A stretch of DNA of 61,701 bases from Bacteroidota bacterium. Its GTDB lineage: Bacteria > Bacteroidota > Bacteroidia > Chitinophagales > Saprospiraceae. Positions 42,286 through 44,532 of this stretch are shown piece after piece. The translations under genes and the position numbers were made by a program. How positions within the stretch are numbered: position 1 is the stretch's first letter; each line of letters begins with the position of its first letter. The notes below the pieces were generated by a model. It had not been told where the DNA came from. It saw nothing but the letters and a program-made list of their open reading frames with translations, and ran no database searches. Where the stretch lies: contig CAUJEY010000167.1 in assembly GCA_963169325.1 (NCBI GenBank), positions 1 through 61,701 of the forward strand. Reading direction: 5' to 3'.

Positions 42286-44532
42286 TTAACCCTCCGCAAC
42301 ATGCTCCAAAAACTCCTCCTCCGTCCAAATCTCCACCGTACCCAGCGCCTGGGCCTTTTTCAACTTGCTTCCGGCCTTTTCGCCCACCACCAGTATATTC
42401 AGGTTTTTGCTCACGCCGCTGGCAATACTTGCCCCGGCCGCAGCGGCGCGGGCTTCGGCTTCTTCGCGGCTTTGTGTGCTGAGCGTACCGGTAAATAAGA
42501 TCGTTTTTCCGGCCAGGGGGCCGTCGGCCGCGCTTTGGGGCTTTTTATCGTCCTCGGTTTGGCGGAGGTTGACGCCCAGGTTTTCCATCGTTTGCAGCAG
42601 TTCGATGTTGTGCTCGTTGTGGAAAAAGTTGTACACGTTGCGGGCCAGCACGGGGCCTACGTCTTTGATTTGTTCGTAGCGCTCCAGCTCCCAGTTGGCC
42701 AGATCGAGCACATGCTCCAGCTCGGCGGCGAGCAACTTGGAGGTTTTTTGACCCAGGTGGTGTACGCTCAGGCTGTGCAGCAGGCGATAGATGGGGTTAC
42801 TTTTGGCTTTTTCTATAGCCTTGCGCAGGTTGTTGGCCGATTTTTCTTTAAAACCCTCGAGTTGGGCGATCTTTTCGTAATCCAGGCGGTAGATATCGGC
42901 GATGGAATGCAGCAGGCCGAGATCGAAAAAACGCTGGATGGTGTTCTCGCCCATACCTTCGATGTCCATGGCATGTTTGGAGGTATGAAAAATCATCCGC
43001 TGGATGACCTGGGCTTCACATTCGGCGTTTTCGCAGCGCCAAATAGCCTCGCCTTCGGGCTTGACCAGCAGGCTGTGGCAAACCGGGCAGTTTTTGGGAT
43101 ACACGACCGGCTGTTCCGACCCGTTTCGCAGTTCATCGAGGGCCTTGACGATATAGGGTATCACATCGCCTGCGCGTTCCACCAGCACGGTATCGCCGAT
43201 CCGGATGTCTTTGCCCCGGATAAATTCTTCGTTGTGCAGGCTCACGTTTTGCACCGTGACGCCGGCGAGTTGCACGGGCTCCAGTTTGGCCACCGGCGTT
43301 ACTGCCCCGGTTTTGCCGACCTGAAATTCCACATCGCGCAGTCGGGTAGTGGCCTGGCGGGCCTTGAATTTGAAAGCAATGGCCCAGCGCGGGTGGTGGG
43401 CCGTGTAGCCGCAGCGCGCTTGTAGTTCCAGGCTGTTAACTTTGATGACCATCCCGTCAATTTCATACGGGTAGGTGTCGCGCTGGATTTGCCAGCCTTC
43501 GCAAAAGGCGATGACCTCGGCGATGTTGGAGCAGATAAGGCGCTCGGGTAGTAAAACCCCACCCCCGACCCCTCCCCCGAAGGGGAGGGGGGACGCGAGA
43601 GGCTCGGAGCGTACTCTACGTCCCCCCTCCCCTTCGGGGGAGGGGTCGGGGGTGGGGTTTAGGCTCGGCGTTTTGAACCCCAACTCGCTCAGCAGCAGGA
43701 TCGAATCGTTATGGGTTGGAAATTTATCCAGCACACTATTTCCTTCGGTATCCGTGGCGTAGCCGAGTTGATAAATAAAGGCCTCCAGCCCGCGGTTTGC
43801 CGCTTCCTTTGGGTCTTTCATGCGCAGGCCGCCGGTGGCTGCGTTGCGGGGGTTGGCGAAAAGCGCTTCGCCGGCCTCCTGACGTTTGGCGTTTATTTTT
43901 TCAAAAATATCTTTCCGAATAATGGCTTCTCCGCGCAGTTCGGCTTTGGCAATGCCATATTTGGAGAAGCCGGTTTGCAGCGGGATGGAGCGCAGGGTGC
44001 GCATATTGGCCGTTATTTCGTCGCCGACCTCGCCGTTTCCGCGGGTTGCGGCGCGCAGAAGGCGGTCGTTTTCATATACCAGGGCGATCGTACCGCCGTC
44101 GAATTTTGGCTCTACGGCGTATTCTACATCCGAGTCTTTTGCCAGACCGCAGCGTTTTTTTACCGCCGTGTCAAAATCGTTCAGGTCCGTCGCGTCGTAG
44201 GAGTTGTCGAGCGACAACATGGGCGTCAGGTGCGCTACCTGGTCGGCGTCCTCCGTCAGGTCGGCCGAAACGCGTTGGGTGGGGGAATCGGGCGTGATCA
44301 GTTCCGGGTGTGCCCCTTCGATGGTTTCCAGCTGTTTGTATAGCTGGTCGTACTCAAAATCGCTGATAACGGGGTCGTTTTGCACATAGTACCGCCACTC
44401 GTGGTAACGGATCACGCTGCGCAGGTCTTCGGCGCGTTCGACGTCAGACTCCGCAAACAGGTCGGCCTGAGGTGTGTACAGTAGTTTTTTTGAGCGGTCG
44501 TAAAGTGCGCGCTGGGCTTCTTTCGAGTACAT
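42286..44532 (-). CDS. ligA: NAD-dependent DNA ligase LigA with a palindromic insertion
   Basis: 748 residues against about 670 for most LigA. Domain Ia and the adenylation domain come first, with the catalytic Lys in EPKFDGG (K143, usual form KxDG). Then come the OB fold, the four-Cys zinc finger (CPVC...CENAEC), helix-hairpin-helix repeats and a C-terminal BRCT domain ([20 protein letters not shown]). The extra length includes about residues 290-327 ([13 protein letters not shown] ... [11 protein letters not shown]), encoded by an inverted repeat at 43554-43660 and lying between [10 protein letters not shown] and [10 protein letters not shown] in the adenylation domain. Since ligA is essential, the insert is presumably tolerated on a surface loop. 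Confidence 0.97.
43554..43660. repeat. Palindromic element inserted in frame in ligA
   Basis: Two 42-bp arms (43554-43595 and 43619-43660) are perfect inverted repeats rich in CCCC/GGGG with a 23-nt loop. Its reading as [12 protein letters not shown] and [11 protein letters not shown] is in frame and free of stops. It is bounded by normal ligA sequence on both sides. Confidence 0.92.

Follow-up and report, generated by a model that had tools for sequence, protein, structure and literature searches.

An in-frame palindromic element in the ligA gene of a Saprospiraceae bacterium and its possible mobilisation by a DUF559 endonuclease

The ligA gene of a bacterium of the family Saprospiraceae (Bacteroidota) carries a palindromic element within its reading frame. 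We believe, with a probability of about 0.57, that this insert represents the non-autonomous form of a homing element which, without splicing, occupies coding sequences in frame and is mobilised by an endonuclease of the DUF559 family. This reading draws on the computed existence of a family of such palindromes, their in-frame insertion, the occurrence of empty, mini and full states, ends shared with the DUF559-bearing members, the wide association of DUF559 with palindromes, and the relationship of DUF559 to a homing endonuclease. The positions of the ligA features in the window (the whole stretch of DNA analysed, 61,701 nt) are given in Table 1.

Table 1. Location of the palindromic element and of its parts within ligA (window coordinates)
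Feature	Position	Strand	Description
ligA, NAD+-dependent DNA ligase	42286..44532	-	748 aa including the insert
Mini palindromic element, type A	43555..43659	-	in frame in ligA; AACCCC...GACG-loop-CGTC...GGGGTT; 35 codons
Arm 1	43554..43595		hairpin CCCCTCCCC-CGAA-GGGGAGGGG at 43569-43590
Loop separating arms	43596..43618		23 nt
Arm 2	43619..43660		exact inverted copy of arm 1; hairpin at 43624-43645

An earlier note on this DNA had described perfect 42-bp inverted arms that read through the ligA frame. This is confirmed here, since the two 42-nt arms around the spacer are 100% complementary and the ORF remains open over its full length. As single-stranded DNA the palindrome folded with -66.8 kcal/mol (z -13, none of 200 dinucleotide shuffles being as good), and RNA folding against shuffles gave a z of -12.6. 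The limits AACCCC...GGGGTT, which define an element of 105 nt, were set by comparing the copies of the family. The window also contains repeats of other kinds. Units resembling GGTTTGAAGGTT/AACCTTCAAACC, which belong to another family, form inverted repeats at 12430-12570, 19592-19740, 28027-28133 and 37740-37875; an inverted repeat of AAAGTCAAAATGTAAAAGTCAAAAGGGGGAG lies at 45056-45183, just past a small ORF adjoining ligA; and a further one, with 52 nt and 94% complementarity around an 11-nt spacer, is found at 17396-17510.

In the protein, the element corresponds to LigA residues 292-326, next to the best Pfam adenylation-domain stretch (97-288), and the top alignments with ligases of the PDB ended at query residue 259 and restarted at 332. 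The AlphaFold model of this LigA (mean pLDDT 53.7) was too poor to place the insert in a loop or to bear out the position between two conserved strands given in the note. Residues K143, D145 and G146, which we take to be the catalytic motif, and C482, C485, C500 and C505, presumably the zinc ligands, were invariant among 15 aligned LigA sequences, and the insert-bearing gene is therefore probably functional. No second full-length LigA was present among the 18 matches scored in the same genome (from 76 first-look candidates), the remaining 17 being matches to the insert itself. LigA was matched in 59 of the 60 genomes searched, this one included, although in G033 with an E value of only 7e-4. 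Orthologues carrying the same segment, which the note had named as a ground for refutation, did not turn up in the alignment of the genus, where 28 of the 29 other LigA loci had no palindrome at the insert site. In the genome with the nearest LigA (G020, 81% identity), the same site holds a different, longer palindrome.

The source genome (8.07 Mb, a fragmented assembly of 349 contigs) contains many relatives of the ligA palindrome. Its core, CCCCTCCCCTTCGGGG, searched with at most one mismatch, gave 63 matches and none in the reversed control, so that the note's other ground for refutation, a genome with no second copy, does not apply either. The related hairpins form at least 38 clusters, with one more match on contig C315. 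The usual form consists of two head-to-head hairpins with a variable middle and comes with two types of end: type A (GACG...CGTC), to which the ligA copy belongs, and type B (CTTGA...TCAAG). The other copies vary in length. An open frame spans 21 of the 39 family rows examined, and when LigA and 17 other palindrome-spanning ORFs were submitted to Pfam, 15 of these 17 gave matches. The hosts thus recognised were methylmalonyl-CoA mutase, HemD, PheT, MMPL, MutS, an SNF2 helicase, a protein with a UvrB interaction domain, an SF1 helicase, an IcmF-like mutase (two copies), a glycosyltransferase, UvrA, an HTTM/carboxylase protein, EPSP synthase (AroA), 4-alpha-glucanotransferase and an AAA_11/12 helicase. 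A repeated palindromic family set in frame in conserved genes, as the note had supposed, is thereby borne out.

Among the 17 coding units whose hosts have Pfam support, 16 shared one reading phase (binomial p 2.7e-7), in which the arms encode a linker rich in Pro and Gly. Type A arms have stop codons in none of the six frames and type B arms are free of them in five of six; the shared phase therefore suggests either that harmless linkers have been selected or that insertion itself is phase-specific. The intergenic copies were embedded in host palindromes that extend beyond them: in the first 10 nt of the flanks, mirror complementarity was 73% for 13 intergenic copies versus 36% for 14 coding ones. 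Inspection by eye of the flanks of the family copies revealed neither a target-site duplication nor a target consensus.

The same genome harbours three DUF559 (PF04480) genes, on contigs C153, C30 and C282. On C153, the DUF559 sequence stands directly between two arms, in the head-to-head order seen in the mini copies, and is in frame in a helicase, with an open frame of 1285 aa. On C30, it stands between two complete dimers, in frame in HemD (510 aa). In this locus (L033), the DUF559 sequence is followed, at about 1929-2301, by the second complete dimer and by further single hairpin units in tandem. The third copy, on C282, is accompanied by a different inverted repeat (score 35). Compared over 46 positions with the ends of the C30 units, one end of the ligA element agreed at 44 and the other at 40. 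When 55 element ends were compared with both contigs, 43 were nearer to C153 (29 of them with at least 42/46 matches) and 12 nearer to C30 (three at this level).

Across the genus, DUF559 was found in 22 of 42 genomes, and 17 of 28 matches lay within open frames of at least 350 aa. The hosts were a class I tRNA synthetase (L139 and L144), which we read as IleS, MutS (L136) and a helicase. Beyond the genus, DUF559 was found inside LeuS (L103, L119) and a SpoIID protein (L108), and many other DUF559 genes were free-standing. Three further observations concern individual loci. In a Prevotella metagenome-assembled genome (L109), DUF559 forms an N-terminal fusion with guanylate kinase, whose gene, gmk, is listed in the available portion of PMC2229807 as a host of palindromic elements in Rickettsia. 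In two Flavobacterium metagenome-assembled genomes (L119, with its host assigned by Pfam, and L125), the LeuS-borne DUF559 differs at positions that are conserved elsewhere, as would be expected of a nuclease in decay whose frame is kept open. Finally, the helicase-DUF559 gene of a contig labelled Thermoanaerobaculia (L099) looks the same as that of L138 of genome G062, and its DUF559 is 87% identical to one of the source genome; misbinning or transfer is the probable explanation.

Single sites were found in different states in different genomes, the empty and occupied states at the IleS, MutS and LigA sites being compared between species. Thirty IleS loci comprised nine with DUF559, one with a mini element (G020), one with a hairpin remnant, 13 short forms (that of the source genome among them), four intermediate forms and two that were not parsed. 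One of the DUF559-bearing loci (L173) showed no in-frame motif on the right-hand side of the insert. For MutS, 21 of 30 loci were readable, and of these four carried a mini element (the source genome, G062, G024 and G020), one carried DUF559 (G015) and 16 had no insert. Thus, the IleS and MutS sites that hold DUF559 in some relatives are empty or mini-occupied in sister genomes. A single clade for the IleS-borne DUF559 sequences was rejected (AU p 0.008, a post hoc test, since an earlier tree had shown the split), and therefore this site has probably been entered by DUF559 at least twice. For the helicase-borne sequences, a single clade was not rejected (p 0.124).

A profile of 28 members of the DUF559 family matched PDB entries 3hrl (E 2e-29) and 3r3p (E 1.1e-6), and a structural model of DUF559 (pLDDT 87.9) retrieved with Foldseek 3hrl, 3r3p (E 7.4e-5) and, weakly, the Vsr structure 1vsr (E 0.011). 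Entry 3r3p is the homing endonuclease I-Bth0305I, deposited as a mobile intron protein. On profile and predicted fold, DUF559 is thus a putative Vsr-like endonuclease of the PD-(D/E)XK type related to I-Bth0305I. A Caulobacter DUF559 protein has been placed among Vsr-like nucleases in a 2026 paper (PMC12907096, from the text available). The link between helicases and DUF559 has also been seen before, COG2852 being among the domains that turned up in a helicase comparison whose accessible sections do not mention palindromes (PMC5706428). In the open-licence PMC literature, none of the matches listed was a paper tying DUF559 to palindromic repeats.

We then compared the surroundings of DUF559 genes with control sequences. 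In a first set of loci (L135 being left out as too short), inverted repeats with a score of at least 15 flanked 20 of 38. In a second, overlapping set, they flanked 27 of 50 non-redundant loci, as against one of 230 random places, and 23 loci had no inverted repeat of score 15; the 50 were those tested out of 94, the others having no motif match (39) or being redundant (five). Hairpins with stems of at least 9 occurred within 350 nt at 42 of 95 DUF559 loci (redundancy kept) versus 19 of 283 far windows, and in 60 of the 81 stems of this size near DUF559 one arm consisted of pyrimidines to 90% or more. Among the records of a plasmid collection (14 of 26 used), five of 14 loci had a two-sided repeat that scored at least 15. 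Those without one were the Neisseria, Sinorhizobium sp., Shinella, Methylobacterium and Synechocystis records and four of the five from Azospirillum, and six of these nine had a nearby hairpin with a stem of at least 9. Taking the phylum from the record title or taxonomy line, the two-sided repeats belonged to Bacteroidota, Planctomycetota, Calditrichota and Bacillota in the first set, and to Pseudomonadota and Deinococcota in the plasmid collection.

At the level of genomes, an excess of at least three palindromes over the reversed control was found in 69 of 111 genomes of the order with a strong DUF559 match versus 31 of the 187 others (298 in total; Fisher 1e-15), and the relation held in a within-family permutation (p 0.001). 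Part of this association is due to the DUF559 loci themselves. After subtraction of two hairpins per DUF559 copy, a correction that is excessive for copies without matching hairpins, the proportions were 42/111 and 31/187 (Fisher 4e-5), but neither the rank test (p 0.55) nor the within-family permutation (p 0.59) gave a significant result. Moreover, 28 of the 111 genomes with strong DUF559 had at most one pattern palindrome, and nine of the 187 without it showed an excess of ten or more. Within the genus alone, the link to the strict palindrome count was weak: DUF559 was present in seven of nine genomes with at least seven palindromes versus 15 of 33 others (raw count), and G032 and G024, with 27 and 19 palindromes, had no DUF559 match.

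These exceptions, that is, palindrome-rich genomes without DUF559 and DUF559 genomes nearly without palindromes, count against mobilisation by DUF559, and so does the C30 copy, which is not enclosed by the arms of one element. The two null tests after subtraction, the DUF559 loci devoid of flanking inverted repeats and the failure to recognise a target consensus or duplication weigh in the same direction. The C30 arrangement and the palindrome-rich genomes devoid of DUF559, together with the intergenic copies nested in longer host palindromes, would suit a different explanation, namely that the palindromes are landing sites which attract DUF559 and owe their own spread to accidents of replication or repair in which it has no part. 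We consider this rather unlikely, because on C153 it is the arms of one element, in mini-copy order, that enclose DUF559, because C/T-rich hairpins are linked to DUF559 in several phyla, and because in MutS and IleS the mini and DUF559 states occur at one site.

We regard as less probable still that a RAYT/Y1 (IS200-like) transposase moves the palindromes as it would ordinary REPs, with DUF559 merely sitting among them. The corresponding domain, PF01797, is certainly common (223 of the 298 genomes of the order; three in the source genome), and genomes with a strong match showed the excess of at least three palindromes more often (67/157 versus 33/141; rank p 0.004). However, this effect failed within families (p 0.21) and was not significant either in genomes without strong DUF559 (18/83 versus 13/104, p 0.44) or in those with it (49/74 versus 20/37, p 0.12). 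In addition, no PF01797 match was obtained in G061 (25 palindromes) or G031 (26 palindromes), the three PF01797 contigs of the source genome carry none of the 63 core matches, and the four PF01797 loci of the genus that were long enough (out of eight) showed no C/T-rich palindrome by three patterns, two of them having another, REP-like repeat. The Y1 transposase genes of L166 and L168 are flanked by REP-like palindromes of other kinds, such as ACTAACCCCCGGCTTCAGCCGGGG.

That LigA loses the palindrome by intein or intron splicing is hardly credible: inteins do occupy conserved genes, and ligA is one, but with 105 nt the element is too short for an intein or an intron. Pfam found no intein or Hint domain in L063, L033 or seven other DUF559-bearing proteins, and the 28 Rfam matches obtained in five loci, 27 of them to microRNA families, were all below the gathering score, so that no group I or II intron was recognised there. 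Nor do we give any real weight to an assembly artefact, for although the assembly is fragmented and some copies lie at contig ends, the ligA element is in frame in mid-contig and other genomes have elements at matching sites in LigA, MutS and IleS.

Mobilisation by DUF559, the reading that we favour, could proceed as follows. The ends of the element are two C/T-rich head-to-head hairpins almost free of stops, which in the preferred phase are read as a Pro/Gly-rich linker, so that the host protein would tolerate the insert. The larger members combine like ends with a DUF559 endonuclease, whose frame often runs on from that of the host. This enzyme would cut either a hairpin target or an allele without the insert, and the break would then be repaired on the template of an occupied copy, which would bring the element in by homing. 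Since the ends are related, DUF559 might also act in trans on the mini copies. More tentatively, and at somewhat less than even odds, DUF559 may be the enzyme that mobilises palindromic repeats of the C/T-rich and CGTC types across six or more phyla. Together with these repeats it would make up a class of homing elements that occupy coding sequence without splicing, last in essential genes because the host reads their ends as harmless linkers, shed mini copies and repeatedly invade the same sites in IleS, MutS and LigA. If this were true, it would answer which enzyme moves the CGTC-type REPs, explain how an essential gene can take up a palindrome and the host survive, and assign a role to a widespread 'protein of unknown function'. 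With DUF559 beside such repeats in several phyla, the question of the mobiliser can be reduced to one protein and one hairpin.

Several known systems resemble the present elements. The Rickettsia palindromic elements (RPEs), to which the earlier note had likened the ligA insert, are palindromes of about 105-150 nt, in several families, many of them in frame in conserved genes (PMC10969869 and PMC2229807, as far as their available text goes). The likeness stands for behaviour alone, the ligA element being likewise a palindrome of similar length in frame in a conserved ORF, and on those portions RPEs are the closest known system in this respect. They differ in that the present family belongs to another phylum, has C/T-rich hairpins and includes members joined to an endonuclease gene; the portions mentioned do not name a mobilising enzyme for RPEs. 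The note had also judged a palindrome in an essential gene to be unusual. It is less so than claimed, because a paper of 2013 had already reported REPs inside genes for tRNA synthetases and for DNA repair, a DNA ligase among them, in a list that spans both REP superfamilies (PMC3733652, in the part available). Palindromes in coding sequence are also known from the mitochondria of Nematomorpha, to judge from the accessible part of PMC6649704.

In architecture, the closest system is that of the CGTC-tagged REPs as described in the same portion of PMC3733652: mostly head-to-head dimers, found in five phyla including Bacteroidetes, with intragenic units and some dimers within longer palindromes. 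Head-to-head dimers and intragenic copies are common to both. These REPs are defined there by an unpaired CGTC (or TGTC, CCTC) at the hairpin head, a stem of 8-9 bp that almost always begins with AT, and a tail that is mostly CCA. In the present family, the head is GACG...CGTC in type A, whereas type B lacks CGTC, and the stem of 9 bp fits, but its sequence is CCCCTCCCC, without an initial AT, and TCGGGGGTGGGGTT takes the place of CCA as outer tail. As the stem start and the tail depart from that definition, we have not filed the present copies under it. The REPIN/RAYT system (GTAG REPs, REPtrons) similarly combines small hairpin dimers with larger units in which an enzyme gene lies between repeats, but the enzyme on C153 and C30 is DUF559 and not a Y1/HUH transposase.

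As an in-frame homing insertion, the closest case is ShiLan, in a phage methylase (PMC11855218, from the sections available), which is also a coding insertion without a splicing domain and with inferred homing. Its enzyme, in contrast, is an HNH endonuclease encoded in another reading frame of a phage gene, and those sections do not mention palindromic ends or mini copies. I-Bth0305I resembles DUF559 in its catalytic domain, by profile and by fold, and differs in its association with an intron, none having been found by Rfam at the five loci searched here. Coding REPs and RPEs are thus already known, and what appears to be new here is the DUF559 partner of the present family.
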